DNA from: Neisseria sp.
GTDB taxonomy: Bacteria; Pseudomonadota; Gammaproteobacteria; Burkholderiales; Neisseriaceae
Assembly (NCBI RefSeq): GCF_030523955.1
Contig: NZ_JAUNHL010000012.1
Location: forward strand, 1-58,439
Length of the DNA: 58,439 nucleotides
Direction of reading: 5' to 3'
Part shown: positions 1 to 15,119 of the stretch, piece after piece
Numbering within the stretch: position 1 is the first letter of the stretch
How the letters are laid out: the number at the start of each line of letters is the position of its first letter
Made by a program: the position numbers and the translations under genes
Notes under the pieces: generated by a model
What the model was told of the DNA's origin: nothing
Databases searched by the model: none
The model's input: only the letters and a program-made list of their open reading frames with translations

Positions 1-155
1 CGACCGCGGTGGTCGCGGATGTAACGGGTCTTTTGCCGGTTGAGCAGTTGTTCGATGGGCTGCCAATCGAGTAGCCGGTTAATTTTGAGCAACGGGTAGC
101 TGTCGATATGTTTGCTCATCATTATTTGGGCTTGTTGGTGGAAGAAGCTGCTCAT
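1..155 (-). CDS. IS5-family transposase, N-terminal part
   Basis: Partial gene of about 51 codons starting at ATG 155 and running off the left edge. It would catalyse cut-and-paste movement of its IS. Recognition rests on the N-terminal pattern (MSSFF...KHIDSYPLLKINRLLDWQPI...LNRQKTRYIRDHRGR) typical of IS1106-like Neisseria transposases. The catalytic DDE domain is not in the window. The stretch from 220 to 427 between this IS end and the next gene is AT-rich and shows nothing recognisable. Confidence 0.7.
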   Translation of the reverse strand, partial: MSSFFHQQAQIMMSKHIDSYPLLKINRLLDWQPIEQLLNRQKTRYIRDHRG

Positions 156-219
156 AAAAAAACTCCTCTGAATTCTTTAGGAGAATTTAGAGGAGTTTTG
201 GTTTTTTTGCAAAGGTCTC
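1..219 (-). mobile_element. IS5-type (IS1106-like) element, 5' end only, cut by window edge
   Basis: Reading leftward, the element begins at 219 with the terminal repeat GAGACCTTTGCAAAA and a short leader, followed by the transposase start codon at 155. The translation from 155 to base 1 (MSSFFHQQAQIMMSKHIDSY...) resembles the N-terminus of IS5-group transposases common in Neisseria. The rest lies outside the window, so intactness cannot be judged. A 13-bp imperfect hairpin around AGGAGTTTT (162-200) sits between terminus and start codon. The same terminal sequence recurs at 45164 and 58066. Confidence 0.75.
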
Positions 220-427
220 AGCCTGAATGTCTAATAAATTGATAGCTGAACGTACCGTTACTTGGGGTGCAAAAAAATCAAGCACTTTTTGAGTCTAATC
301 CCATTGCTAATCTACGTCAGTCTCTAATATTAAAGAAGCATCTTCGGATAAAATGTATAAATAGTTATTTTTTACAAAAAATAACTTATTGATGAATCAA
401 GAGGTAACTTAAGTTTTTTGTAAATGT

Positions 428-1120
428 CTAAAAATTATATCGCATTTCCAACGCTGTTGTGTAAGCTTTGTAACGTGTTCTGATGTTGTCTGGTGGTAAT
501 AATGGTAAACCATTATTTTTGTATTCTGCAGAAGAGGTTTTTACATAGCGATAATTTAATGATGCGCTATATTTTCTTTTATAGTTCATAGTAATGCCAG
601 TACCTAATTGCCATGCATTAACGTTATCCTTGAATGTTTCTCCGAAAGGAACACCCCCAGCTTTTAAATTTTCAATTGTTAAACGTCCATGGCCGACTCC
701 GGCGCCAATATATGGCTTAATATTAACTTTTTCACTAACTTGTAAATTAATGGGAATATCGTACCAAAGATTGGCAAAAAAACCTGAAAATGATTCGCTT
801 CCTAGACCTTCAATGGCGGTGTTACCTTCATAGTGCCTTTCATCAAAGCTACTCAAAGAATTTTTCCGATGACTCAACTCAATTTCTGGACGAAAGCCTG
901 AAGCTAAGTTCCAGCCCGAGACTATCCCTAAAGTATATCCGCTTTTGGTAGGCTCTTTAAAATTCATCCTTACAAAATTAATATTTTGTTGCTTAAGATA
1001 TTGAGATGACACCCAATTTCCCCCTCCTTGGAGTCCAATATAAGGTCCACTTTCGGTTGATTGAGCAATACTGAAGCTAGGAAATAAAATGATTGGCGAT
1101 AATAAAAGTTTCATATTCAT
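428..1120 (-). CDS. small outer-membrane beta-barrel protein
   Basis: Predicted 8-stranded outer-membrane barrel of the OmpA/Opa-like porin-fold class, about 230 residues. A signal peptide is visible (MKLLLSPIILFPSFSIAQS). It is followed by alternating amphipathic strands rich in Gly, Tyr and Trp (GPYIGLQGG, YIGAGVGHG, NYRYVK), and the chain ends ALEMRYNF, the C-terminal aromatic signature recognised by the BAM machinery. The start is ATG 1120 (or 1114), with GGAG nine bases upstream; an in-frame TTG at 1138 lacks a site. It lies downstream of the biosynthetic cluster in the same orientation and shares its low GC, so it may be its last gene. Function (adhesin, exporter pore or immune target) is unknown. 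Confidence 0.7.
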   Translation of the reverse strand: MNMKLLLSPIILFPSFSIAQSTESGPYIGLQGGGNWVSSQYLKQQNINFVRMNFKEPTKSGYTLGIVSGWNLASGFRPEIELSHRKNSLSSFDERHYEGNTAIEGLGSESFSGFFANLWYDIPINLQVSEKVNIKPYIGAGVGHGRLTIENLKAGGVPFGETFKDNVNAWQLGTGITMNYKRKYSASLNYRYVKTSSAEYKNNGLPLLPPDNIRTRYKAYTTALEMRYNF

Positions 1121-1251
1121 AATACATGTCTCCGACAATTACCACTACAAGTTGATTGGTATGTTGATATTTAAAAAGTGCTCAATTTAGAAAAATTTTT
1201 AAGTACCTGCTTTTGAACATTCAAGATGATTAATAAAAGAGTGATCTTGTA

Positions 1252-1686
1252 TTATGAATAAGGTTGCCACTTTTTATTAGCAAGATTTTTCATGTTTTCT
1301 AGTGAATCAGTAAGCGATTTTTTTAGCATAGTTTGAAGAATTCTTCTGAGAGGCCAAAAATTTACTGAGCTTACATCGCATTGATGTGTTACTTGACATG
1401 ACCGTGAAGATGTAATATCTAACCAGTGATGAAATTTTAAAGTTAGGCCAAATATTTCTGCGGTATTACTCCAACTTTTTTCAAAAATTACTTGGTCAAG
1501 AGTTATTTTCATTTTAAGGCCATTTTTTAATTCGCAAACTCCTGTTGTTCCTTCGGTAAATTCACCATTAATCTGACAAATCTTAACATCCTTATCCCAA
1601 TTTGGGGAGTTCTTCAAATCAGACCAAATTAACCAGATTATAGATGCAGGTACATCCATATCTAAACTAACAGTTACTGTTTTCAT
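1252..1686 (-). CDS. SRPBCC-superfamily protein (polyketide cyclase/START-like)
   Basis: A 144-residue protein with the helix-grip START/SRPBCC pattern. It opens with a beta-strand and the 'DVPASIIWLIWSDLKNSPNWD' segment typical of polyketide cyclase/dehydrase-like members, and has a long C-terminal helix (MLKKSLTDSLENMKNLA). These folds bind hydrophobic ligands; in polyketide clusters some act as cyclases or aromatases, which is the likely link here. An AGGA site lies eight bases before ATG 1686. It follows the large ketosynthase gene after a 183-base gap and could be in the same transcript. A catalytic role is inferred from context only. Confidence 0.65.
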   Translation of the reverse strand: MKTVTVSLDMDVPASIIWLIWSDLKNSPNWDKDVKICQINGEFTEGTTGVCELKNGLKMKITLDQVIFEKSWSNTAEIFGLTLKFHHWLDITSSRSCQVTHQCDVSSVNFWPLRRILQTMLKKSLTDSLENMKNLANKKWQPYS

Positions 1687-1869
1687 TTGTTAAATCCTAA
1701 TAGTTGCCATGTTAATTGTGTGTAAAATTAACAAATATGATGTATGGCCTCGCAAGTTACTTTATTCATAGTGAACCCATTAAAGGCTACCACAGTATTA
1801 TCGGCGGTAAATTATCAGTTATTTTAGATTCCTCTATAAATAATAGGTTATATGGGTGTCGGATGCTTT

Positions 1870-4800
1870 TTATTTTTTTAAAACTTGAGCAATTATTTTT
1901 ACTGATCCTATTCTTTTGTTGCTAGAGAAAAGTGATAATTTAATAATATTGTTTAAACTGCTAGTTTTAGGTAAGTTTTCTTTGGTTGCGGTTACGCGTA
2001 GAGTGCCCTCTCGTGATATTGGAGCTTCCAATGAAAAATCTAATATAACTAGATTCATTGGTATTCCTAAAGGAACTTTTAGTATTTCATGGGCAATTTG
2101 CATATAACATTGGCGTGCAATTTCTAAAAAGTAGACTATAGAGAGATATTCGGTAGATCCTGAATGTTGAAAAAAATGATTATCAGGTATTGGTGTGGTA
2201 AAAACAGAATAGATATCTTCCTGAACAAACAGGTCACTAACCAAAACATTGTCCTCGTTATGTTTATGTAGCAATTCCATACGAGTACAAGGCTTAAATC
2301 TATTAGTGTTTTTGGGATAATCAGCTAAACTTATATGGCTGTATGTAAATTTAAGGCTACATACAACCTTTTGGTGCTGCTCAATAATAACAGTCCAATC
2401 TTGCTTTTTACTTTTGTATAGTTTTAAATTAATTTTTGAATTTAGGTTAACATAATTCATAAATCGGATATTTATACTGCTGATAAATTCAGATTTTTTA
2501 ATAATTTTCGCATAATCAATTAGTTGTAAAGCTCCTGCGATTAGTAAAATTCCAGGAACGTGGTCTAGTGGATGATCAAAAAAGTAAGGATGCTCTTGAT
2601 TGACATTTAGTATGGCGCCCCAGCCATATTCTGTTAGCTGAATATTAGTTATTAAATTAGATAAATTTTTTTCTAAATCATTTTGTTCAATATCTCCCGT
2701 CGATAAATTTTGCATAATTAAATTTCTAGTACTTAATCCCGCCAACACAGTTTCTGATACCTGTTGGCTAATTAATTGTAAACATGTATTTGATTTGTCA
2801 ATATTACTCTCTATAGTTTGAATATGTTGTATACCATTTACTGTAGTTTGCGTGGAACCCGAAAATTTTAAAACGTAAGGAAGTTTATTGTTATGATTAG
2901 CTGAATCTGAATGATTTTTTAATCGTTCACTAAAAAGCCACATTACAGGATTCCCTTGGTTATGAACCTCAATGACTCCTTTTCCTTTTAAAGACACAAC
3001 TTGTCGTAATAGATATTCAATTCCACAAGCTTCAGATAACCAACCAGTTGATTGGTATAAATTTTGGGTATTTTCTTGATGAAAAGCATCTAATTCACAA
3101 ATGCTTATTTCAGTTATTTCACTTTGGTCTATTCCTGAAATATCACATGCATCACTAAGTTGACTCGCATGTGTTGCGAACACTGCGCAGTGTAATAATA
3201 CTAATGATTGATCATCGTTTTTATCCCAAGGTTTTATTAATAGTACGCCAGCACCCTCACCATGAAGTATTTTCGTGGCATCATCGCAGTGGCGTAATTC
3301 GCTATAGCTACTTATATAACGACCAGCTCCTAAAATAATTTGATCAAATCCACGATTAAACCAAGTAGGTAAAGTTAATAATGCTTGCCATAATAGCCCT
3401 GGTTTTCCAGCTAACGTTTGATGAAATCCTTGTAAATTAAAAATTTTTGCAACATATCCAGAAAGCATAGATGGTAGCATAGACGCTACATCTGCAACTG
3501 TTACATTGGGAGGGTTCCCTTGTCCTGACTTAAAGTATTCGCATCTAGAGTATGCATTTGAAAAGCTTTCCCCTCCTGTATTACAACATATCATGACAGC
3601 TGTTTTTGTGTTATTCGCAACTGATGGATGGCGATTAATTATCCGACCAGCTAATGAGGAGAGCAACAATTTATATGGGTCTATATGATTTAAAGCTTTC
3701 GGCCCCATCGAATAACCATTCACATCTATTTCATAGTCTTTGTTAAGATAATGACCATGTTTTAGATTGTTACAATTATTATTTTCAAATCTCTCTATCG
3801 GAAATGCTCCAATGGGATTAGGACATTTCAAAGCGTCCCTCCATTCTGCCAAATGAAAGGCACCCCCTAAAGCTGCTTCTGCATCTATTATTGATAAATT
3901 TAATCGTAAGAGACCATTATTTTTAATTGGCTCTTCAATCTCTTCTTTTGAATAGGTGAGAGGTTTATCAATAATCATGTGTGCATTGGAACCACCGAAA
4001 CCAAAACTTGAGATACCTATACGACGTACTTTCTTCCCATCTACTTTATTAGATGTTGCTAATTCAATTCCTATTTTAGAGAGGGAAGGGGTAACTTGGT
4101 AATCAGGTTGTGGTGGGATATACTGATTCTTCAGAATCATCAATGCTTTTGCTAATGATGGCCCACCTGCAGCAGCTAAGGTGTGTCCTAACATTGCTTT
4201 AATTGATCCCAATAGCAAGGGGCTTTGATTTGTTCTGTTTTTAACAAAAAACTGATGTATTGATTGCAATTCAGTTTTATCACCCAATGGTGTGCCTGTG
4301 CCGTGAGTTTCCAAATAATCAATACTTTTAGGATCCAAATTCTTCCAAGCTCTTTGATATGCAGCTATTTGTGCATTTTCACTAGGAGAAAAGGTTGAAC
4401 CTTCATTGCCATCTGATGATAAACCAATGGCTTTTAATAAGCCTAAAGGGGTGCGTCTAGATATTAATGCACTATTTAAAGGTTCGAGTAAAAAAGCGCA
4501 AGCGCACTCGGCGGGAACAATCCCATTTGCTTGAGAGCCGAAAGCACGTAGGCATGCATCTTCAGAGAATGCAGTTAATTGTGAAAAACCTAAGTAAAGA
4601 GGTAGGGCTAAGACAGTATTAATCGTCATAATTACAACTTGGTCAGCCTGTCCGCTGATTACCAAACTACGTCCCATTTCTAGTGCATAGTGAAGGGAGC
4701 TGCATGCAGTATCCACTGACAATGCAGGCCCCCCTAATTGCATTCTATCAGCTAAAGTTTGAACTTGTTCACCAGCAGACAAACCATTATCTGAAGCAAA

Positions 4801-5190
4801 ATAACTTTCATCACTCCAAGAAGTGGCTAGAATTAAGCCTATTCTACTCCTCTGCAAAGAATTAGAGTTTAATTGAGGTTCTTTAAATAGTTGCTGTAAT
4901 ACTCTTGTACCTATAGTAAGTTGACGAGATAAATCACCTATAGGTTCATCTAAGGTGAATGCTTTATCTAGATAAACTTTGTTAAGAGTGCCTGGGTGAG
5001 CATTAAAAATAGATTTAGATTCTACATCCCAACGTGGTAATAAAGAATTAGTTGCTGCTGGCTTTCTTTTATTTAAAAAATCCCATAATTCTTCTATTGA
5101 TTTAGCTCCAGGAAATTCACCAGCCATCGCGCTAAAACAAAAAAGTAATTCATCCATATTATTTTGTGAATCCATAAAATTGTGCGTCAT
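1870..5190 (-). CDS. KS-CLF-AfsA trifunctional polyketide/fatty-acid synthase protein
   Basis: A 1106-residue fusion. Residues about 10-410 are a beta-ketoacyl synthase with a complete triad: Cys163 in DTACSS, His296 in ETHGTGTPLGD and His336 after Lys331 in KAMLGH. Residues about 430-760 repeat the thiolase fold, but the nucleophile position reads QTLAGKPG (near 595), so this half has no cysteine and looks like a chain-length factor. Residues about 850-1100 are a double hotdog with the AfsA signature: YFFDHPLDHVPG at 869-880 and a second half with E1023-x2-RQ. AfsA proteins join beta-ketoacyl chains to dihydroxyacetone phosphate. KS-CLF-hotdog-hotdog also mirrors PUFA synthase PfaC, so a dehydratase role is the main alternative. 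It starts five bases after the ACP gene stop and is translationally close-coupled. No acyltransferase or ketoreductase is present in the protein. Confidence 0.8.
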   Translation of the reverse strand: MTHNFMDSQNNMDELLFCFSAMAGEFPGAKSIEELWDFLNKRKPAATNSLLPRWDVESKSIFNAHPGTLNKVYLDKAFTLDEPIGDLSRQLTIGTRVLQQLFKEPQLNSNSLQRSRIGLILATSWSDESYFASDNGLSAGEQVQTLADRMQLGGPALSVDTACSSLHYALEMGRSLVISGQADQVVIMTINTVLALPLYLGFSQLTAFSEDACLRAFGSQANGIVPAECACAFLLEPLNSALISRRTPLGLLKAIGLSSDGNEGSTFSPSENAQIAAYQRAWKNLDPKSIDYLETHGTGTPLGDKTELQSIHQFFVKNRTNQSPLLLGSIKAMLGHTLAAAGGPSLAKALMILKNQYIPPQPDYQVTPSLSKIGIELATSNKVDGKKVRRIGISSFGFGGSNAHMIIDKPLTYSKEEIEEPIKNNGLLRLNLSIIDAEAALGGAFHLAEWRDALKCPNPIGAFPIERFENNNCNNLKHGHYLNKDYEIDVNGYSMGPKALNHIDPYKLLLSSLAGRIINRHPSVANNTKTAVMICCNTGGESFSNAYSRCEYFKSGQGNPPNVTVADVASMLPSMLSGYVAKIFNLQGFHQTLAGKPGLLWQALLTLPTWFNRGFDQIILGAGRYISSYSELRHCDDATKILHGEGAGVLLIKPWDKNDDQSLVLLHCAVFATHASQLSDACDISGIDQSEITEISICELDAFHQENTQNLYQSTGWLSEACGIEYLLRQVVSLKGKGVIEVHNQGNPVMWLFSERLKNHSDSANHNNKLPYVLKFSGSTQTTVNGIQHIQTIESNIDKSNTCLQLISQQVSETVLAGLSTRNLIMQNLSTGDIEQNDLEKNLSNLITNIQLTEYGWGAILNVNQEHPYFFDHPLDHVPGILLIAGALQLIDYAKIIKKSEFISSINIRFMNYVNLNSKINLKLYKSKKQDWTVIIEQHQKVVCSLKFTYSHISLADYPKNTNRFKPCTRMELLHKHNEDNVLVSDLFVQEDIYSVFTTPIPDNHFFQHSGSTEYLSIVYFLEIARQCYMQIAHEILKVPLGIPMNLVILDFSLEAPISREGTLRVTATKENLPKTSSLNNIIKLSLFSSNKRIGSVKIIAQVLKK

Positions 5191-5195
5191 ATTTT

Positions 5196-6251
5196 TTAGC
5201 TTTCCAAGTCTGTTAATAATGCTAAAGCCTCTTTTGCATTTCTACGGGACATCAAAGCTTCTCCAGCAAATTTACAATGACTAAATTGATTACCCATTTC
5301 CTCCCAAATCTGTGCGCGAATAAATCCATCTGCTAAGTATTCAGAAAAAGGTGTTTCCTCATTAAAATTATCAATAGCACTGTGTTTTTCTAACAGTAAA
5401 AACAATGACTCTTTGAGCTTTGAGGTAGGACTAGGCTTATTTTCGTTAAAAAATTTTTTTAAAGTATTTGAAATTTCTTTAGGAGACAGTTCTAGTAAAT
5501 CCATTATATTACCGTCGTATTTTTTTACTGAAGGACATTTTAATTGTAAAGCCTCTAAAAAATCTAAACGCCCCAAAGAGTCTAAACCCAATTCATCAAA
5601 ACTAACCGTCATATCGATATTGTCCTCAGAAAAGCCAGTTAAATCTGAAATGATATTAGAAATGACTTCTTCTATGTCTACTGTATAAAGTTCATTTTTT
5701 TTTGGGTTTTCCGAGAAAGAATAGATTATGTTTAGTAGTTTTTGAGGGGTGTCGACTTCATCGTATTGATAAAATTTATTTATCAACGGGTACTGTTGGT
5801 TTAGAGCTTCATGTAAATCTAAAATACTAAGTGAATCAAGACCAAGGCTAAAAAAGTCCAAGGATAAATTGATGTGATCAGTTTCATAACCAGTCATTTC
5901 GGCTAATGTATTTCTTAACCATTCTTGCGGATCAAGTTGATTATCATGAATTTTTTGATGTATATTTTTAGGTTCATGATTTTGTTGATTTTCACTTATA
6001 CTTGCTTTGACTAAATTCTCGTCAAATTCCTCAAGAATAATTGATTGATTAGAGCTAAACGATAATAACTGTTGATTTGTTTCTAGGAATTTATTTGTTA
6101 TTTCCTCTGTTTGAGAAAGAAGTCGTTCAAGAATTTCTCGTTTTTGAGGGGTTTCATGCAATAAGTCAAGAATTCGATCTACAAATGTAAAATAATTTTG
6201 TGTTATTTTGCTATTTGCACAAATATATTCTTGTATCACTAAGTTGTTCAT
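5196..6251 (-). CDS. tandem acyl-carrier-protein protein
   Basis: A 351-residue protein with two acyl-carrier domains. Each carries the phosphopantetheine site: GLDSLS with Ser140 and GLDSLG with Ser225, both preceded by FxxLGLDS. The first 100 residues are helical, Glu/Gln-rich and unlike an ACP. The last ~80 residues (LKESLFLLLEKH...GEALMSRRNAKEALALLTDLES) are also outside the ACPs and may dock to the synthase. AAGGAG six bases before ATG 6251 is the strongest ribosome-binding site in the cluster, fitting a protein needed in excess. It presumably carries the growing chain for the KS-CLF-AfsA protein encoded immediately downstream. Tandem ACPs are a feature of PUFA-type and some polyketide synthases. 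Confidence 0.85.
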   Translation of the reverse strand: MNNLVIQEYICANSKITQNYFTFVDRILDLLHETPQKREILERLLSQTEEITNKFLETNQQLLSFSSNQSIILEEFDENLVKASISENQQNHEPKNIHQKIHDNQLDPQEWLRNTLAEMTGYETDHINLSLDFFSLGLDSLSILDLHEALNQQYPLINKFYQYDEVDTPQKLLNIIYSFSENPKKNELYTVDIEEVISNIISDLTGFSEDNIDMTVSFDELGLDSLGRLDFLEALQLKCPSVKKYDGNIMDLLELSPKEISNTLKKFFNENKPSPTSKLKESLFLLLEKHSAIDNFNEETPFSEYLADGFIRAQIWEEMGNQFSHCKFAGEALMSRRNAKEALALLTDLES

Positions 6252-6289
6252 TTGATTCTCCTTGGAATATGGTTTAATGCTTATTAAAT

Positions 6290-7990
6290 TTATACTCGCT
6301 CAAGAAATGATAATTTATCTTTCATAAAAGATATTAATTTATCTGGGTCTGTACCTTGAAAAGCAATGTATCCATCAGGTCTTATTAGGACTAGATTGCC
6401 TCTTTTTGCATGATATCGAGAATGGAGCCTCCAATCTGGATCTGCGATCACGTTAAGATTTTCAATATCTATAGTATCTACAACACAGCGAGCTTCTATA
6501 CCTTGATAGTTCATTGTTATTGCTTGAGCCATTGCTAAATATGAGTCTACATATAACGATCCTATATCTGTGGCCGTAAAGATTAGTAGCAAATAGTTGT
6601 GATAATAGAAAGAACTTAACAGCAGCTCTTGAGAGGTTACATTTGGTAACATCCACAGTTTAATGTCAGGTGCTAATTCGCCAGCTTTAGGTATGGGGTG
6701 TCGAGGGTAATCTTTTTTAAATTTTTGCCTCCACGACAGGTGTTCATTACTTTTCAGCATATTAAGAACCCAACTACTTTGCTTGTAGTTGTAGGAGTGC
6801 CCTGAAATCATTGAGGGTAATTTATTTTGAATTTTTCTTCGATTACTAATAAGGGAGAGCAAATTATTTCGAAAATAAACTATTATGGGGTTTTTTGTAG
6901 TAATTAGTTTAGTCAAACGATGTGCTGTCTTTTCTGCTTCTTGTGCTACTAGGGATCGTTCATCATGATAACTGTCTAGAAGTTTGCTATTTGCATAACC
7001 TTTATAGACGAAAGCTAGTTTCCATCCTAAATTGTATGCTTCAGACAAACCTAAATTCATCCATTGCCCCCCAATTGGGCTGCCTATATGTGCCGCATCA
7101 CCAACTAAGAAAATAGAACCATGCTTTAATTGATTAATTTGCCTATGTTGAAAAGAAGCTATCGTCATAGAGGATAAGTTAGATAATGTCATTTTTTTTC
7201 CACGTTCATTACACAGCTTTTGAAAAGTGGGCAAATCTAATGCAGGTTGTTCATTTTCAGGTGGCAATACATGTGGAATCTCAAAGAACAATCTATATCG
7301 TCCTTTACCATCAATTGGAGCTACTGCAACATAGCCTTCTTTAGAGCCAAGAAAAAAAGCCCCCTCATCTAAGGGTTCATCCCACTTAATATCTGCATCG
7401 GTAAGCATGAAGTAAGAATCATAAGACGAGCCTGAAAAATCTAATTTTAGTTTTTTACGCACTAAGCTTCGAGCTCCATCACACGCACATAACCAACGGT
7501 ATGATGACCATTCCGCATTTTCTTGGTCATCAAGTTTTTGTATTAAAGCGTGGATGTCATGATCAGGTGTTTGTTCAATATCAAGTAAGGTTGTATTCCA
7601 TTCGACCGTCCCTCCCAAACTTTCAAGCCGTTGTAACATTAGCTTCTCGACATCTGGCTGAGGTAAGCTAAGCAGAATTGGCCAATTGGTTTCTAATCGT
7701 GAAAAATCATAATTAAGTATACGTTTCTTCTCCGATTGTATAGAGAAAGTTTTAATATGAAATCCTTGATTTGTTGCCTCATCGACAATACCTAACTCGC
7801 GAAAAATTTCTAAGGTTCTAGCGTGTATAGCCATGGCTTTAGTAGTATTAGATGGCCCATTATTTTTTTCTATAATCCTAAATGGAACATCATATTGTTT
7901 AAGTAAAATTGCTAATGTTAAACCTACGGGGCCAGCTCCAACGATCAATATTTCAGAGTTTTTGTTTGAGATTTTTTTATCAGTCATCAT
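6290..7990 (-). CDS. FAD-dependent aromatic/polyketide monooxygenase
   Basis: A 566-residue class A flavoprotein hydroxylase of the PheA/TfdB/UbiH group. The N-terminal dinucleotide fold (ILIVGAGPVGLTLA) is followed by a middle substrate region and the second FAD motif GDAAHIGSPIGGQWMNLG. The C-terminal ~150 residues form the thioredoxin-like extension (LVLIRPDGYIAFQG) seen in polyketide hydroxylases and phenol hydroxylases. It would hydroxylate or oxidatively open the cluster's intermediate using NAD(P)H and O2. ATG 7990 (or 7987) is chosen because the upstream in-frame codon is only TTG. The start lies two bases after the stop of the phosphatase gene, so translation is probably coupled. Confidence 0.85.
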   Translation of the reverse strand: MMTDKKISNKNSEILIVGAGPVGLTLAILLKQYDVPFRIIEKNNGPSNTTKAMAIHARTLEIFRELGIVDEATNQGFHIKTFSIQSEKKRILNYDFSRLETNWPILLSLPQPDVEKLMLQRLESLGGTVEWNTTLLDIEQTPDHDIHALIQKLDDQENAEWSSYRWLCACDGARSLVRKKLKLDFSGSSYDSYFMLTDADIKWDEPLDEGAFFLGSKEGYVAVAPIDGKGRYRLFFEIPHVLPPENEQPALDLPTFQKLCNERGKKMTLSNLSSMTIASFQHRQINQLKHGSIFLVGDAAHIGSPIGGQWMNLGLSEAYNLGWKLAFVYKGYANSKLLDSYHDERSLVAQEAEKTAHRLTKLITTKNPIIVYFRNNLLSLISNRRKIQNKLPSMISGHSYNYKQSSWVLNMLKSNEHLSWRQKFKKDYPRHPIPKAGELAPDIKLWMLPNVTSQELLLSSFYYHNYLLLIFTATDIGSLYVDSYLAMAQAITMNYQGIEARCVVDTIDIENLNVIADPDWRLHSRYHAKRGNLVLIRPDGYIAFQGTDPDKLISFMKDKLSFLERV

Positions 7991-7992
7991 AT

Positions 7993-8640
7993 TTAATACC
8001 AATTTCTATAAAAAGGGATTGTTGCAATATCTAAGATTTGAGTATCACCTGATGAGTCCCCATATACATAAATTTGATACTCATCTAAATTAGGTACAGC
8101 TTCTCGTAAACGTCGAACTTTTTCATCGCCAACACAATCATTTCCCATAATGAATCCATTGAATTTTTTTCCATCGGAGGCTAATCTAGTTCCGCATACA
8201 ATATCCAAGTTGTTTTTTTCTCCCCATATTTTCAAATAGTTTTCTGGCGAGTTACTCACTAGAGCAACAAGATGTCCTTGAGATTGGTGCCAATGTAAAC
8301 GCCGGATTGCTTCGGGTCGTAAACAATGAGGTAGATATTCCTCAACATAATGTTTAGCTATGGTATTTTCCATGCGAACATCAAGATTTGAAAAAAAATA
8401 ATAGATAAACTTTCTCCTAGCCTTCATTACTGGTGTTATTTTTAATAGAACAGCAATAATCTGAGGAAGTGATAATAAGACTTTTCTCCAGAAGAAACAG
8501 GAGCCGTGAATAAATCTTATATAACGCCAAAATGTATGCCTATCAGTTAATGTCCCATCAAAGTCAAAAACTACCAATACAGGCCTAATAATATTATTTT
8601 GCACTTGTAAACTCTCCAAATTATGTTTATTTAGAAACAT
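7993..8640 (-). CDS. HAD-superfamily phosphatase (IB type)
   Basis: A 215-residue haloacid-dehalogenase phosphatase. Motif I is VVFDFDGTLTD with the DxD nucleophile and acid, motif II is ALVSNSP, and motif III/IV is YVYGDSSGD. The helical cap between motifs I and II is that of SerB/CicA-like subclass IB enzymes. The gene overlaps the end of the ligase gene by 14 bases and abuts the monooxygenase gene. If the neighbouring AfsA domain makes a phosphorylated butenolide, as in A-factor synthesis, this enzyme would remove the phosphate. That role is inferred from gene context; the actual substrate is unknown. Confidence 0.85.
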   Translation of the reverse strand: MFLNKHNLESLQVQNNIIRPVLVVFDFDGTLTDRHTFWRYIRFIHGSCFFWRKVLLSLPQIIAVLLKITPVMKARRKFIYYFFSNLDVRMENTIAKHYVEEYLPHCLRPEAIRRLHWHQSQGHLVALVSNSPENYLKIWGEKNNLDIVCGTRLASDGKKFNGFIMGNDCVGDEKVRRLREAVPNLDEYQIYVYGDSSGDTQILDIATIPFYRNWY

Positions 8641-10135
8641 TTAATAATTGTATTTGGCGGGGTAATTTAAAGTTAGATAGATAATTGCCCATGAAAGATA
8701 AGAGCTTTGGTTCTGTTAAGGACTCATCTGTTACTTTGACACTTAAGAAAATTGTATTAGCTTGCTTTGGGTCTGGAACTACCCATGCACGTGCATCCTG
8801 AACAGAGTTATGTCTTAATGCAGCAATTTCTATATCACGAAAATCAATCATTTGTGCACGTACTTTAGAAATACGTAGACGTTGGCAAACAAAGTATAGA
8901 TGATCATTGTCATCACTCCATACCAAATCTCCCGTATGGAACCATTCGTCTTTAAAAAACAATAGGGTCCCTTCTTCATCTTCATAGTAACCTTTTGAAA
9001 TCATAGGAGCTTTAACTATTAACTCTCCAATATGACCTTTCTCTACTTCTTTTCCATCAGCATTTATTACTCGTGCTTCTACACCGGAAATTATCTGTCC
9101 CATTGCTCCCCTATGTTGTTCTCCTAATGTATTTTGAACAATAATTGGTAAGGTTTCGGTTAATCCATACCCCTGTAGCACAGGCGCGCAACCTAATAGT
9201 GAGCTAAGTCGTTCGCCATCATTTGCTGGTAAATGCCCTCCACCCGAATAAATCATCAATTGAGGGTGCAATTCCGTTGGGGCTTGTTTTCTTTTTGCTA
9301 ATCGAGTATTAAAGTAACGAATTACATCGGGAACTAGGCATGCAAAAGTAACTTGATAGGTTGACAGGACGTCAGCTAAGTCTCGTTTAAGAATGGTGTT
9401 GGTAATTAGTAAAGTAGCTCCTACGCTAAGAGGGAAGACTAACATGACAGATAGGCCGAAGATTGCATATAGCGGTAAAGTAACAAGGTGAACACTACCA
9501 ATACCTTGTGTATGGAAATTTTTATGTAAGCCATCAGTAGAATAAGTCATATCCAAATAGTGATGAGCAACAGCTAAAGGTCGCCCCAAACCACGCCAAG
9601 TAAATTGTAAAGATATAATTGGATTACCTTCAGGGGCTTTTAATGTTTCTTGGTGATTGTTTGCTGTTTTTTTAACTAAATCATCTAGGTTGTAATGGTT
9701 TTCTTCATTGTTGTTGAGAGTGTTATTTCCACACAGGAGCACACGGTGGAAAGGTTCGGTAATAGCGCCAAGCTTATCTTTATAGAATTCTTCATCTGTA
9801 ATAATATAATCCAGCTTGATTGTGTTAAGAATTTGATTGATTTCGCAAGAAGTTAGGCTATTATTGATAATGACGGGTAGCGCTTTTTTGCTAATTAAAG
9901 CCAAGTAGTATGAGATGAAATCAATTCCATTGGGCAATATTAAGGCTACCTTATTTCCCTTCTTGATTCCGGCGGCTGTCAGTGCATTTTGCCGCTTTTC
10001 TGCTAATTGTTTTAATTCTTTGTAACTTAAAATTTTATCGTTATCTATGTCATTAATAGCTATACTGTCTGGGTGGCTTTCCGTAATTTTCAAAAATCTA
10101 TGCATAAATCCGTAATTATTGGTTACTGTAGGCAT
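8627..10135 (-). CDS. divergent AMP-dependent acyl/aryl synthetase
   Basis: A 502-residue member of the ANL adenylating superfamily, first gene of the cluster. The fold is clear from GYGLTET (322-328), GVEARVIN, GELIVKAPMISKGYY and HTGDLVW (around 400-405). Two core signatures are damaged. The A3 phosphate loop, normally rich in Ser/Thr/Gly, reads FTWRGLGRPLAVAH (about 178-190). The protein also ends at QIQLLNVSK, before the usual A10 catalytic lysine. Either it adenylates by an altered mechanism or it works only as a loader or thioester-forming partner of the ACP protein. GGAAGG about ten bases before ATG 10135 is a good ribosome-binding site. The 130 AT-rich bases upstream should hold the cluster promoter, but I could not pick one reliably. 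Confidence 0.75.
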   Translation of the reverse strand: MPTVTNNYGFMHRFLKITESHPDSIAINDIDNDKILSYKELKQLAEKRQNALTAAGIKKGNKVALILPNGIDFISYYLALISKKALPVIINNSLTSCEINQILNTIKLDYIITDEEFYKDKLGAITEPFHRVLLCGNNTLNNNEENHYNLDDLVKKTANNHQETLKAPEGNPIISLQFTWRGLGRPLAVAHHYLDMTYSTDGLHKNFHTQGIGSVHLVTLPLYAIFGLSVMLVFPLSVGATLLITNTILKRDLADVLSTYQVTFACLVPDVIRYFNTRLAKRKQAPTELHPQLMIYSGGGHLPANDGERLSSLLGCAPVLQGYGLTETLPIIVQNTLGEQHRGAMGQIISGVEARVINADGKEVEKGHIGELIVKAPMISKGYYEDEEGTLLFFKDEWFHTGDLVWSDDNDHLYFVCQRLRISKVRAQMIDFRDIEIAALRHNSVQDARAWVVPDPKQANTIFLSVKVTDESLTEPKLLSFMGNYLSNFKLPRQIQLLNVSK

Positions 10136-10344
10136 GTTTTACACCTTCCTTTTGAAAGTCGTTTTAAGATACTAAAATACTTGAAAAATTAAAATTTTTG
10201 CTATTTTTAGGTGATTTTAATGTTTAAAGGGGTTTGAATTGATAATTTAATATGAATAAAAATGATTTTAGGTTAAGATGGGGTTGGGTAAATTAAAAAA
10301 TGATGCTGTTTTATTTGCGCTACTATATGTTTTTGTCAGAGGTT

Positions 10345-10583
10345 GTTGCGAAATAAAAGCTACAGCATGAAGCAAGCTGTCACGCTCAGTCAACTTAGCA
10401 CGATAGCTCTTCGGATGGCATAAATCGCCCTCGTCCCAGTTTAATGACACATCCAGAAATTACTGTACAATTTTTTTCTGTGCTGTGTGCCAGAGCCGTT
10501 ACCTCAATATTATTTGTAAATAAAGCGCGTACCAGATTATTGCCCAGCAAGCTGGTGGTACCGATAACAAAAGTGTATTTCAT
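10345..10583 (-). pseudogene. decayed copy of the SDR reductase gene (5' fragment)
   Basis: Remnant of the first ~80 codons of the intact reductase gene at 12181, in the opposite orientation. The start matches (MKYTFVIGTTSLLGNNLVRAL versus MKHAFVTGATGLLGNNLVRAL). A small insertion/deletion near 10450 then moves the match into another frame (SLNWDEGDLCHPKSYRAKL), and similarity fades by about 10345. No catalytic YxxxK is left, so it cannot encode an enzyme. It lies back to back with the intact lysR gene at 10699, reproducing the original divergent arrangement. Confidence 0.8.
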
Positions 10584-10698
10584 CTATTTTGTTCTCCAAA
10601 AAATTAAATATTAAATTTGAATATTTATAATAGCCTGTATATTTGTTTCAAGTAAGCCCCTACTTATTGAATAGTTTGTTGCACAGGAGACATCAATC

Positions 10699-11595
10699 AT
10701 GCGTAGTACCGAATTGGGAGAGCTGGTAGCCTTTGTTAGCATTGTTCAACAAGGTAATTTCCGTCGTGCCGCAACCAGCCTGAACATCAAGCCATCAACG
10801 CTATCACACAGCATGCGGGCACTAGAGGAACGGCTCGGGATTCGCCTGCTCAACCGAACCACCCGCAAGCTTTCGCTCACAGAAGCCGGGCAAGTCCTAT
10901 TTGATCAGGTTGCTCCAGCATTGGGCAATATTGAAAATGCTGTTGAAACACTGAATCGCTTCCGCACCACCCCTGCTGGTACCGTACGCCTCAATATGCC
11001 GCGCGTTATTGCCGCGCATTTATTGTTGCCCAAGCTGAAAGCTTTTCAACAACGCTATCCCGATATCAAACTGGAAATTGCTGCGGAAAACCGCTTTACC
11101 GATATTGTTGGTGAAGCATTTGATGCCGGCATCCGTCTTGGCAAACATCTTGAGCAGGATATGGTAGCCGTACGGATTACGCCTGATATCAAGATCGCCG
11201 TAGTCGGCTCCCCCGATTATTTTGCCCGCCATCCAGTCCCACAAACACCACAAGATTTGCATCAGCATCAATGTATCAATCGCCGCACCATCACCACTGG
11301 CGGATTGGAAGGCTGGATTTTTGAACAAAGCGGCCAAACCTCCAACATCACCGCCTCCGGGAACCTGATTCTGGACGATTCCGACTTAATCGTAGATGCT
11401 GCCACTCATGGCTTGGGATTGGCCTATTCTGCTGAAGAGCTAGTCATGCCGCAGATAAAAGCAGGAAAACTGATACAAGTGCTCTCAGAATACAGCCCAA
11501 TCGTCCCCGGTTTTTTTCTCTACTACCCCGATCGTAGAATTTCATCAGCATTGCGCGTATTGGTAGGTGCTCTACGAATTGGTGAGTCTAATTAA
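10699..11595 (+). CDS. LysR-family transcriptional regulator
   Basis: Full-length LysR regulator of 298 residues. The N-terminal winged helix-turn-helix is standard (GNFRRAATSLNIKPSTLSHSMRALEERLGIRLLNRTTRKLSLTEAG). Residues about 90-290 form the periplasmic-binding-like effector domain. AGGAG lies upstream of ATG 10699. It is divergent from the decayed reductase fragment. In the parallel copy its homologue is divergent from the intact SDR gene, so regulation of that reductase is likely. It also lies about 560 bases upstream of the biosynthetic cluster's first gene on the other strand, so control of the cluster is possible but unproven. The effector is unknown. Confidence 0.9.
   Translation: MRSTELGELVAFVSIVQQGNFRRAATSLNIKPSTLSHSMRALEERLGIRLLNRTTRKLSLTEAGQVLFDQVAPALGNIENAVETLNRFRTTPAGTVRLNMPRVIAAHLLLPKLKAFQQRYPDIKLEIAAENRFTDIVGEAFDAGIRLGKHLEQDMVAVRITPDIKIAVVGSPDYFARHPVPQTPQDLHQHQCINRRTITTGGLEGWIFEQSGQTSNITASGNLILDDSDLIVDAATHGLGLAYSAEELVMPQIKAGKLIQVLSEYSPIVPGFFLYYPDRRISSALRVLVGALRIGESN
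10756..10989 (+). repeat. inverted duplicate, copy A (234 bp, identical to copy B)
   Basis: Comparing lysR codons ~20-97 with the reverse complement of 11788-12021 shows 234 consecutive identical bases. The first 57 bases of the two genes and their shared promoter regions differ at many positions. A sharp identity boundary inside a diverged duplication suggests recent gene conversion. Confidence 0.85.
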
Positions 11596-11679
11596 TCAAT
11601 GGTTGGCACATCAATCAATCATTTCATTGCCATCACGATATTACAGAAGGAGCTGCCCTAGACAACTAGGCCTGCACCA

Positions 11680-12078
11680 CCAACAATATCGGTAAAGCGG
11701 TTTTCCGCAGCAATCTCCAGTTTGATATCGGGATAGCGTTGTTGAAAAGCTTTCAGCTTGGGCAACAATAAATGCGCGGCATATTGAGCGTACGGTACCA
11801 GCAGGGGTGGTGCGGAAGCGATTCAGTGTTTCAACAGCATTTTCAATATTGCCCAATGCTGGAGCAACCTGATCAAATAGGACTTGCCCGGCTTCTGTGA
11901 GCGAAAGCTTGCGGGTGGTTCGGTTGAGCAGGCGAATCCCGAGCCGTTCCTCTAGTGCCCGCATGCTGTGTGATAGCGTTGATGGCTTGATGTTCAGGCT
12001 GGTTGCGGCACGACGGAAATTGCCTTGTTGAACAATACTAATAAATGCCGCCAATTCTCCTAATTCGGTACTTCGCAT
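11680..12078 (-). pseudogene. truncated second lysR copy
   Basis: Starts MRSTELGELAAFISIVQQGN at ATG 12078 and keeps the DNA-binding domain to ...RTTPAGTVR. A one-base loss and a nearby ~12-13-base deletion (about 11775-11788) then shift the frame, and homology to the intact lysR stops near 11680. It might still yield a short DNA-binding domain but lacks the effector domain. It is divergent from the intact reductase gene at 12181, which therefore has lost its own full-length regulator unless the 10699 copy acts in trans. Confidence 0.85.
11788..12021 (-). repeat. inverted duplicate, copy B (234 bp)
   Basis: Reverse-complement partner of 10756-10989, identical over all 234 bases that I compared. 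The broader, less similar duplication runs from about 10345 to 11130 and from about 11680 to 12420. Confidence 0.85.
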
Positions 12079-12180
12079 GATTGGTGATTCCTGTGCAACA
12101 AAGTATTCAATAAATGGTGTCTTATTTGAAACAATTGTACAGGCTATCATAAAGCATGACCGAAATTTTGGAGAAAATAG

Positions 12181-13191
12181 ATGAAACACGCTTTTGTTAC
12201 CGGCGCTACCGGTTTGCTGGGCAATAATCTGGTACGCGCTTTGTTGGCAAAGAATATTGAGGTAACAGCTTTGGTGCGCAGCGCAGAAAAAGCTGCACGG
12301 CAATTTCCGGATGTGTCGTTAAACTGGGTAGAGGGCGATTTATGCCGACCGGAGAGCTATCGTACGAAGTTGGCCGAGTGCGACTGCTTGTTTCATACCG
12401 CGGCCTATTTTCGTGATAGCCTCAAAGGCGGTAAGCACTGGCAGGCTTTGTATGATACCAATGTCAAGGGCACTGAAGATTTGCTTCAGGCAGCTTATGA
12501 AGCAGGTATCCGGCGGATGGTTCATACTTCTTCCATTGCCGTATTGCATGGTGAACAAAATCAATTAATTGACGAAACTATGTCCCGCCCCAGAGAGGAT
12601 GCCGATGATTATTACCGTAGCAAAATCATGAGCGAAGAAGTGGTAAATCATTTTCTGGATAAGCATTCCGATATGTTCGCCTGTTTTGTTTTACCTGGTT
12701 GGATGTTTGGGCCGGGCGATATTGGCCCGACTTCGTCCGGCCAATTCGTAATGGATTATATGCAGAAAAAACTGCCGGGCGTTTTACCGGCGAGCTTTAG
12801 TGCGGTGGATGCGCGTGATGTGGCCGAACATCTGATTTTAGCTATGGAAAAAGGCCGTCGGAGCGAGCGCTATCTTGCAGCAGGGCAACATGTGACCATG
12901 GGCGATTTAATGAGCGAACTGGCACAAGTCAGCCATGTACCTGCGCCAACCAAACCGATTCCGCTTTTTATGCTGCGCTTGATTGCACAAATTCAGGAAA
13001 TTTATCACTGGCTGACTAAAAAGCCGATATTGCTGAGTCGATCCAGTGTTAATCTGATTGCCCGCGAATACCTGCGTACCCATTTTAGTCACGAAAAAAG
13101 CAAACGAGAACTGGGGGCTACGTTTCGGCCATTGAAGGAAACATTAAACGATGTATTGCAATGGTATCGGCAGCATGGTTTTTTGAAATAG
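12181..13191 (+). CDS. extended SDR NAD(P)-dependent reductase/epimerase
   Basis: A 336-residue extended short-chain dehydrogenase of the dihydroflavonol-4-reductase-like group. The Rossmann motif is at the N-terminus (VTGATGLLGNNL), VHTSSIAVLHG is the strand-4 Ser motif, and the catalytic pair is in DDYYRSK. GGAG lies eight bases before ATG 12181. It would reduce a ketone or aldehyde on a small molecule; the substrate is unknown. It is divergent from the truncated lysR copy. Its duplicate fragment lies at the border of the biosynthetic cluster, so a tailoring role in that pathway is conceivable but speculative. Confidence 0.85.
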   Translation: MKHAFVTGATGLLGNNLVRALLAKNIEVTALVRSAEKAARQFPDVSLNWVEGDLCRPESYRTKLAECDCLFHTAAYFRDSLKGGKHWQALYDTNVKGTEDLLQAAYEAGIRRMVHTSSIAVLHGEQNQLIDETMSRPREDADDYYRSKIMSEEVVNHFLDKHSDMFACFVLPGWMFGPGDIGPTSSGQFVMDYMQKKLPGVLPASFSAVDARDVAEHLILAMEKGRRSERYLAAGQHVTMGDLMSELAQVSHVPAPTKPIPLFMLRLIAQIQEIYHWLTKKPILLSRSSVNLIAREYLRTHFSHEKSKRELGATFRPLKETLNDVLQWYRQHGFLK

Positions 13192-13220
13192 GGGTGATTG
13201 GATTTAAGTTGTAAGAAAAG

Positions 13221-13270
13221 CTCAATAAAATGCCTGTCTGAAAGAATTTTCAGACAGGCATTTTATTGAG
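13221..13270. terminator. extended inverted DUS terminator
   Basis: Perfect 23-bp stem built around an inverted DUS pair (TGCCTGTCTGAAA / TTTCAGACAGGCA) with a three-base loop and flanking CTCAATAAAA/TTTTATTGAG. It separates the convergent SDR and glmS genes and can terminate both. It is the first DUS met from the left. Confidence 0.85.
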
Positions 13271-13280
13271 CAAATTTCGC

Positions 13281-15119
13281 TTATTCTACGGTAACCGATT
13301 TGGCCAAGTTACGCGGTTTGTCTACATCGGTGCCGCGTGCCAGAGCTGCGTGGTAAGACAGCAGCTGCACGGGAATGGTGTGGACGATCGGTGACAGGAT
13401 GCCGACATGGCGCGGAGTGCGGATCACGTGTACGCCTTCGCCTTCGTTGAAATTGCTGTCCAGATCGGTGAACACAAACAATTCGCCGCCGCGGGCGCCG
13501 ACTTCCTGCATATTGGCTTTCACTTTGTCGAGCAGGTTGTCGTTCGGTGCAATCACGACTACCGGCATGTTTTCGTCTACCAGTGCCAATGGGCCGTGTT
13601 TCAGTTCACCGGCCGGATAGGCTTCGGCGTGGATGTAGGTGATTTCTTTCAGTTTCAATGCACCTTCGAGGGCGATTGGGTAGTGGATACCGCGGCCGAG
13701 GAACAGCGAGCTGTTTTTCTTGGCAAATTTTTGCGCCCAAGCGGCGATTTGCGGTTCCAGATTCAATACGTGCTGGATGCTGCCCGGCAATTGGCGCAAT
13801 TCTTCGATGTAGGCGTGTGCCTGCTCATCGCTGACATGGCCGCGCATTTTGCCGATGGTTACCGCCAAGCCGAACAATACGACAAGCTGAGTGGTGAAGG
13901 CTTTGGTAGAAGCTACGCCGATTTCGGCACCGGCGCGGGTGTAGAGCACCAGCTCGCTTTCGCGCGGCAGGGCGGATTCCATGACGTTACAAATGGAAAG
14001 GCTGTGTTTGTGGCCCAATGATTGGGCGTATTTCAGCGCTTCCATGGTGTCCAGCGTTTCACCGGATTGGGAAATGGTGATAATCAGCTGTTTGGGGTTG
14101 GCGATAACGTCGCGGTAGCGGTATTCGCTGGCGATTTCCACGTCGGTCGGCACTTTGGCAATGCTTTCCAGCCAATATTTACTGGTGAGTGCGGAATAAT
14201 AGGAGGTGCCGCAAGCGAGGATTTTGATGCTGTCGATATTATTGAATACTTCGCGGGCATTTTCACCGAAGTTTTCCGGCTCGAAACCGCCTTCAAGGAA
14301 TACTTCTGCGGTATCCGCGATGGCCTTGGGCTGTTCGTGGATTTCTTTTTGCATGAAGTGGCTGTACGGGCCCAACTCCAGTGAAGCAAGCGACAATTCG
14401 GAAACTTTCACTTGGCGTTCGGGGCTGTTGCCGGTTTTATCAATCAGTTTTTCAATACCGTTGGCTTTCAAAATGGCAATGTCGCCATCTTCCAGATAAA
14501 CAATGCGACGGGTAAAGGCGATGACGGCGGATACGTCGGATGCGATAAAGGTTTCTTGGTCACCCAGGGCAACCAGCAGCGGGCAGCCCATGCGTGCGAC
14601 AACCATTTCTTCTGGGTTGTCTTGTGCAATCACGGCAATGGCGTAAGCACCGTGGAAGTTTTTGGTGGCCGATTTGACAGCTTCAAACAGGTTGCCGCCG
14701 TTTTGGCTGTATTCGTGTTTGACGCTGTGCGCGATCACTTCGGTGTCGGTTTGGGATTCGAATTCGTAACCCAGACCTTGCAGGCGGGTGCGTTCTTCTT
14801 CGAAGTTTTCGATGATGCCGTTGTGTACCACGGCAATCAGGCCGCCCGAAATATGCGGGTGGGCATTGGGCTCGGTAACACCGCCGTGTGTGGCCCAGCG
14901 GGTGTGGCCGATGCCGATGTGGCCGAACAGGCCTTTTTCTTTTGCTGCGTCTTCCATCAATTGTACGCGGCCGACACGGCGCACGCGTTTGATTTTTTCG
15001 CCGTTGAACACGGCGATGCCTGATGAATCGTAACCGCGGTATTCAAGACGTTTGAGGCCGTCGGTTAAAAAGTCTACTACATTATGGTTGGCGCGGATGG
15101 CGCCGACGATACCGCACAT
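13281..15119 (-). CDS. glmS: glutamine--fructose-6-phosphate aminotransferase
   Basis: Makes glucosamine-6-phosphate from fructose-6-phosphate and glutamine, the entry step to UDP-GlcNAc for peptidoglycan and lipo-oligosaccharide. The 612-residue length is usual. The N-terminal glutaminase starts with the nucleophile MCGIVGA and contains GHTRWATHG. Two SIS domains follow ([18 protein letters not shown]), and the C-terminus [13 protein letters not shown] is the conserved sugar-site tail. glmU, next in the pathway, lies directly upstream in the same orientation, with an 80-base gap holding an imperfect single DUS. Confidence 0.98.

Follow-up and report, generated by a model that had tools for sequence, protein, structure and literature searches.

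Gene organization of the operon

The DNA analyzed here (the window; 58,439 nucleotides) is one whole contig (C22) of the 2.81-Mb genome of a Neisseria sp. It carries an operon of seven leftward genes (428–10135, minus strand), centred on a large protein in which a ketosynthase (KS) is fused to an AfsA domain. Each gene is an intact open reading frame (ORF), and as the contig stops at base 1, the left edge of the operon is open. The first gene (8627–10135) encodes an adenylate-forming-fold protein, termed LIG (Pfam AMP-binding, E = 2.4e-53). It is followed by genes for a HAD-IB phosphatase with DxD and YGD motifs (7993–8640; TIGR01490, above cut-off), a class A flavin adenine dinucleotide (FAD) monooxygenase with GxGxxG, DG, and GD motifs (6290–8002; PF01494, called FAD_binding_3 in Pfam, E = 7.4e-69), a protein with two acyl carrier protein (ACP) domains (5196–6251; two PP-binding stretches, LDSL at 138 and 223), the 1106-residue fusion of a KS, a KS-like or chain-length factor (CLF)-like middle domain, and AfsA (1870–5190; Pfam ketoacyl-synthase N, ketoacyl-synthase C, and AfsA), an SRPBCC protein resembling Polyketide_cyc2 (1252–1686; Pfam E = 3.7e-5, below cut-off), and an outer-membrane beta-barrel protein (428–1138; PF13505, OMP_b-brl, E = 5.8e-9). 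LIG and HAD overlap by 14 nucleotides and HAD and FAD by 10, and the gaps after FAD are, in order, 38, 5, 183, and 113 nucleotides. None of the seven genes codes for an acyltransferase (AT). The original prediction, made from the sequence without database searches, described five adjacent or overlapping leftward genes followed by SRPBCC and outer-membrane genes; this layout was confirmed, with intact ORFs at the predicted positions and agreement in Pfam.

Domain architecture of the KS-AfsA fusion protein

The KS domain occupies residues 1–420, and its catalytic residues C163, H296, and H336 are invariant in the four fused proteins aligned. The middle domain (about residues 430–780) matched the Pfam ketoacyl-synt model below the cut-off (E = 0.0057), and its alignment to KS with hhalign was not significant. 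A custom KS/FabF profile gave E = 0.13 for this domain and E = 4e-4 for that of a relative from a Deltaproteobacteria metagenome-assembled genome (MAG). No active-site Cys was seen by eye at the expected position. The label of CLF given in the original prediction is therefore tentative for this domain.

The AfsA double hotdog spans residues ~860–1106. Both halves matched PF03756 above the cut-off and also matched NF041195 (N-type half, E = 3.2e-8; C-type half, E = 1.1e-11); the whole protein scored 67.9 bits against NF041195, under the equivalog cut-off of 200. Residues 861–946 aligned to positions 198–287 of the ScbA/BarX model and residues 971–1056 to positions 4–89, i.e., the halves are swapped relative to ScbA and the C-type half precedes the N-type half. 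The same swapped order was found in the relatives at loci L129, L131, and L132, whose halves were scanned separately, in the Serratia homologue described below, and in a stand-alone Streptomyces protein (L044), while the canonical order, with the N-type half first, was found in L037 and L053. The N-type half keeps LEIARQ, and the C-type half has AGALQ, so that E and R of the second ExxRQ-type motif are lost; we take these two residues of such motifs to be important in ScbA. All ten fused sequences searched retain a DHxLDHxPG motif in the C-type half. A structure model built with eight sequences for residues 800–1106 had a predicted local distance difference test (pLDDT) score of 80.1 and a predicted TM (pTM) score of 0.76. 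It contains two units of helix plus strand, the pattern expected of a double hotdog; a full-length model was too poor to use (pLDDT 44.8).

A homologous operon in Serratia rubidaea

All seven genes were found in identical order in S. rubidaea NCTC12971, headed there by a gene for a short-chain dehydrogenase/reductase (SDR). Identities to the window proteins were 62% for LIG, 66% for HAD, 65–71% for FAD, 38% for the ACP protein, 58% for the KS-middle part, 45% for AfsA, 43% for SRPBCC, and 50% for the outer-membrane protein, the last two lying at the same positions. The gene overlaps are also alike (−14 and −10 nucleotides in the window, −11 and −10 in Serratia). The identical gene order in S. 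rubidaea argues against a chance grouping of these genes. The original prediction had regarded genes scattered in relatives, or a close match to a characterized cluster, as evidence against it; the genes were instead syntenic in S. rubidaea, one relative, and the searches made turned up no such match.

The G+C content at third codon positions is 23–29% in the seven window genes and 67–76% in the Serratia genes (all but FAD). Because of this difference, we regard the two as an old shared operon rather than the outcome of recent exchange between these two lineages, judging from codon composition. Protein identities of 38–71% have been kept despite it, which points to selection on protein function. 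Among 392 genomes of the Serratia family, matches of any kind occurred in 11; one of these had the fused protein, and the remaining ten matched in no part but AfsA. One other genome of the Serratia genus was searched and had no close FAD homologue.

Composition and distribution

The G+C content is 35% in 1–10600 and 52% in 13281–58439. The 12-mer TGCCTGTCTGAA, which we take to be a DNA uptake sequence, occurs 34 times in 10651–58439 and not at all in 1–10650, for which the Poisson chance is approximately 5e-4. The variant of N. wadsworthii, wadDUS, is described as AT-DUS with an inserted T (PMC3630211). If the 12-mer is this variant, the organism is probably N. wadsworthii or a close relative. 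Being AT-rich and free of DNA uptake sequences, the operon looks foreign and was probably acquired horizontally.

The KS part of the 1106-residue protein was matched in all 46 genomes of the genus; beyond the KS part, none of the other 45 matched, leaving the own genome only. The C-terminal 676 residues were likewise found only in the own genome among 398 genomes of the phylum. PF03756 matched in seven of 83 family genomes (six above the cut-off) and in five of 369 class genomes (four above the cut-off), the own genome being included in both counts. When peptides from the whole protein were used to scan the species-genome collection, 14 pattern stretches resulted, none of which was confirmed. 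A DNA-pattern scan of the same collection gave nine stretches, one of them from S. rubidaea NCTC12971: three with the fused protein (L058–L060), five with AfsA outside a KS fusion, and one other (L062), which had no BLAST match to the window proteins. In plasmids, tblastn with the large protein returned 1204 records, none covering 80% of the query, and all 40 matches listed fell in residues 1–488; the C-terminal 676 residues returned 29 records, again none covering 80%. The best identities of the ligase-like protein to plasmids by tblastn were 24–27% (best 15 of 94 records). By blastn, the window FAD gene had no match in E. coli genomes, and the LIG-HAD DNA of Serratia had none in E. coli genomes or in plasmids.

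A ligase-like protein without ATP-binding motifs

The P-loop SGTTGxPKG (A3) of adenylating enzymes is replaced by QFTWRGLGRP in LIG, and the protein ends before the A10 lysine. Both features are missing in nine of the ten loci with a KS-AfsA fusion, where the P-loop position reads [HQ]xT[WYF][KR]GxxxP, and both are kept at the tenth, L102, and in all four control ligases. The ligase-like protein of L129 matched AMP-binding_C above the cut-off despite its missing A10 lysine. The loss of the P-loop and the C-terminal lysine makes ATP-driven activation unlikely, so that the role of AMP ligase given in the original prediction is doubtful; LIG is more probably an acyl transferase or loader, by analogy with AuaE. 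AuaE is a relative of ligases. It is described as an acyl-CoA:ACP acyltransferase that acts next to a KS pair to load an ACP (PMC10295502).

SDR genes and the rearranged operon head

At the operon head, in the position of the Serratia SDR gene, a remnant SDR was identified at 10349–10583 (minus strand) by comparison with S. rubidaea and with an intact SDR at 12181–13191 (plus strand), to which it is 56–70% identical. The intact gene encodes an extended SDR (3beta-HSD/HpnA-like by domain models), with stretches 74–96% identical to the Serratia SDR. Between them lies a gene for a LysR-type regulator (10699–11595, plus strand; domain models), divergent from the operon and with a partial inverted copy at ~11673–12153. 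The region contains an inverted duplication with arms at ~10352–11118 and ~11673–12411, which cover parts of LysR and SDR and are 94–97% complementary on the LysR side and 78–85% on the SDR side. A search for SDR in the genus gave matches of any kind in 17 of 46 genomes; outside the window's own copies, identity was at most 36%, and 28–30% for the best-scoring matches. Because the intact SDR has a G+C content of 48% and resembles the Serratia SDR more closely than the operon genes resemble theirs, its history may differ from that of the operon genes. These comparisons suggest that an SDR belongs to the gene set, and that the intact copy outside the operon is probably the pathway reductase. The LysR protein is a candidate regulator of the operon. 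In Serratia, a TetR gene lies just past the operon, and the equivalent position in the window is off the contig end. The suggestion that the product is perhaps a signal was not supported; the regulator next to the operon in the window is of the LysR type.

Proposed pathway

Here, we propose, at somewhat better than even confidence, that the operon was acquired horizontally and serves to make a polyketide-derived butenolide, furan, or butyrolactone. LIG, lacking its P-loop, would move an acyl group, supplied as a CoA thioester or as an acyl-AMP made elsewhere, onto one ACP. The KS and its KS-like partner would extend the chain with malonyl units, presumably loaded in trans since no AT is among the seven genes. 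As no ketoreductase (KR) domain is encoded among them either, the expected KS product is a beta-keto thioester, which the fused AfsA would condense with dihydroxyacetone phosphate (DHAP), releasing a phosphorylated butenolide. HAD would then take off the phosphate, SDR would reduce the product, FAD would oxidize its ring or chain, and SRPBCC and the outer-membrane barrel would handle or export a hydrophobic product. The domains, the KS, HAD, FAD, and ACP motifs, the synteny, the swapped AfsA halves, the lost ligase motifs, and the foreign composition are observed; the substrates, the order of steps, the product, and its role are all inferred.

A polyketide synthase (PKS)-fused AfsA-like domain condenses 3-keto thioesters with DHAP in vitro (PMC7756379), and a deletion within another abolished the product (PMC7756420). 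AfsA chemistry is plausible in this operon, although one of the two ExxRQ-type motifs is lost. A phosphatase and a reductase are the partners named for butenolide-type pathways (PMC7756379, PMC7037778), and both are present in the gene set as HAD-IB and SDR. The co-occurrence of AfsA, HAD-IB, and a reductase thus supports part of the original prediction; of the roles attached to it, that of a signal was not supported and that of an AMP ligase is doubtful. A HAD-like gene also adjoins a stand-alone AfsA gene (~250 residues) in L035, L036, L039, and L041, three of them from further genomes of the family and the fourth from a different family in the class, and a HAD-IB-annotated gene lies within a Streptomyces ScbA operon (L053); none was seen beside the stand-alone AfsA in L040 and L042. 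The window HAD aligned to those of L035, L036, L041, and L053 with E values of 1e-6 to 4e-13.

Several observations weigh against the proposed butenolide-type pathway. In the Serratia assembly, the frames of SDR, FAD, and KS-AfsA are broken, by sequencing error or decay, and these are three genes of the sole complete homologous operon found. The KS-like or CLF-like identity of the middle domain is weakly assigned. The E and R positions of the C-type AfsA half are A and L in the window and Serratia; E is retained in the Deltaproteobacteria and Oligoflexia proteins, and none of the four has R. The intact SDR passes the Pfam KR model by 0.1 bit (22.7 against a cut-off of 22.6 bits). Moreover, an AT-ACP-KR protein adjoins the fusion in the eight loci other than the window and Serratia (in L102, it is fused with the ligase), and BLAST of the stretches fetched found no HAD or FAD homologue in those eight. 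The AT-ACP-KR domains were assigned by Pfam in L101, L102, L129, and L131, and judged by length and place in the other four.

The last two points bear on the main rival, which we consider unlikely: the double hotdog would be a pair of dehydratases (DH) in a system like the polyunsaturated fatty acid (PUFA) synthase, SDR would act as the ketoreductase, and a polyene or unsaturated acyl product would be oxidized by the flavoprotein. PfaC of PUFA synthase has the order KS-CLF-DH-DH. The fusion protein has the same order of KS, KS-like domain, and two hotdogs, its relatives adjoin AT-ACP-KR proteins, and the only PDB match of the AfsA-part profile was the dehydratase FabZ (E = 0.22). However, the halves match AfsA/ScbA models and not FabA as in PfaC; no Pfam model of FabA, FabZ, or PS-DH was matched, and the MaoC match to the first half was below the cut-off (E = 0.19). 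The absence of a KR domain from the seven genes also speaks against a dehydratase route, although the SDR outside them narrowly passes the KR model, and a HAD phosphatase would be superfluous for it.

Still less probable as the product of the KS, its partner, LIG, and SRPBCC is a short polyketide of aromatic or pyrone type that is hydroxylated by FAD as in type II PKS pathways, with AfsA being structural or a cyclase. We compared the six neighbourhoods of the nearest plasmid FAD homologues (28–31% identity). Three are Streptomyces clusters with a KS, a CLF or second KS, an ACP, an adenylate-forming enzyme, and an aromatase/cyclase; a fourth has an adenylate-forming enzyme and an aromatase/cyclase, and two have no KS or ligase. 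The SRPBCC gene in the operon agrees with such a product, but HAD is left unexplained, and the DHxLDHxPG motif kept in all ten fused sequences counts against it. It is improbable that the operon was imported into Neisseria and has no function there: its seven ORFs are open, the motifs of KS, HAD, FAD, and ACP are intact, and a complete SDR copy is found nearby, even though the head SDR is a remnant in a rearranged region and the sampled Serratia copy has broken frames.

An aryl polyene cluster, compared by its known parts and not by search, was also considered and set aside. A link to the AfsA killing cluster of Ruegeria pomeroyi, which is known to us by description only (PMC7426152), was likewise set aside.

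Comparison with known systems

In the trans-AT PKS for gladiostatin/gladiofungin, as in the operon, a PKS protein ends in an AfsA-family domain (phosphorylated butenolide synthase), and the cluster has phosphatase-type genes, comparable to HAD here (PMC7756379, PMC7756420). Those lines are multimodular, whereas the operon has one KS with one KS-like domain, separate ACPs, AfsA halves swapped relative to ScbA, LIG, and a class A FAD monooxygenase, together with SDR.

The MmfL/MmfH/MmfP and ScbA-type cassettes of Streptomyces combine AfsA with a hydrolase or phosphatase and a flavoprotein or oxidoreductase (L053; PMC7037778, PMC6335953), as does the operon; the Mmf likeness is by description, not by protein sequence. 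Unlike the window operon, these cassettes have a free-standing AfsA in canonical order and TetR-type receptor genes. In L053, no KS or ACP was seen beside AfsA, and the flavoprotein is annotated as of the acyl-CoA dehydrogenase family, whereas that of the window is a class A monooxygenase. The aurachin system resembles the operon as proposed here in its ACP loading by an acyl-CoA:ACP acyltransferase, its KS pair, and its flavin monooxygenases, but its gene table lists no AfsA or HAD; AuaE is likened to LIG by description only (PMC10295502).

Among the papers listed by searches of the open-licence PMC literature, we recognized none on the operon or the KS-AfsA family. A 2021 survey counted 14 butyrolactone-type clusters among aerodigestive-tract and environmental bacteria, and stated that MIBiG then included no cluster, and NPAtlas no compound, from Neisseria (PMC8549736). 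One nonribosomal peptide synthetase (NRPS)-butyrolactone cluster is reported among 77 Serratia genomes (PMC10526024). These counts may or may not include the present operon. The window thus offers a concrete Neisseria operon with a testable product and a second host, S. rubidaea.

A wider family of KS-AfsA fusions

The fusion was also found in one Oligoflexia MAG and one Deltaproteobacteria MAG. In the phylum of the latter, one further genome of 302 had it (any match in 16, MAG included), and in that of the former, five further genomes of 309 (any match in 10, MAG included); the remaining matches in both searches were short. A ligase-like match was present in all ten loci, the window and Serratia included, and an SDR-like gene in nine, the contig of L102 coming to its end. 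The SDR-like genes were supported by BLAST for Serratia, L131, L132, and L134, by Pfam for L101 and L131, and by eye for L129, L130, and L133. None of the seven relatives examined besides Serratia has the YxxxK motif of the window SDR where it would be expected, so that the SDR-like proteins may not all share one function. In a tree of the ten KS-middle sequences, the window and Serratia were joined at 100/100, and L102 formed a long branch.

The central KS-AfsA enzyme appears to represent an undescribed family. We tentatively suggest, at less than even confidence, that the KS/KS-like/AfsA(swapped) fusions are a separate family of compact iterative PKSs that release a phosphorylated butenolide and use a P-loop-less, ligase-fold protein as acyl-transfer loader, spanning Neisseria, Serratia, and lineages related to Oligoflexia and Deltaproteobacteria. 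Two parts of such a family would be unusual: the swapped AfsA, which apparently serves for release, and a protein of ligase fold that lacks the ATP-binding motifs.

The KS-AfsA clusters L129–L133 also contain a protein of ~900 residues, which in L131 matched models of PEP synthase and of PigC/RedH type, together with a P450 (by Pfam in L131 and by eye in the others). Rhodobacterales and two Serratia-family genomes have a different cluster (L051, L052, L055, L057, L061, L103, and L104). Its AfsA-like protein lies outside a KS fusion and has the swapped order by alignment (L052 was not aligned). The neighbour is annotated as TrpA in L051 and L052, the others resemble TrpA, TrpF, or TrpC by eye, and an oxidoreductase and transporters are also present.

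Other features of the window

An ORF on the minus strand (1–155) is open and continues past the end of the contig; judged by eye, it looks like the beginning of a transposase, but its first 40 residues had no NCBIfam match. An Rfam scan of the window gave no match at gathering scores, and seven sub-threshold matches to miRNA models at a palindrome (13212–13283) were taken as chance. The palindrome at 13222–13269, past the glmS end, includes two copies of the uptake sequence and is followed by a T-rich tail, which makes the site terminator-like.

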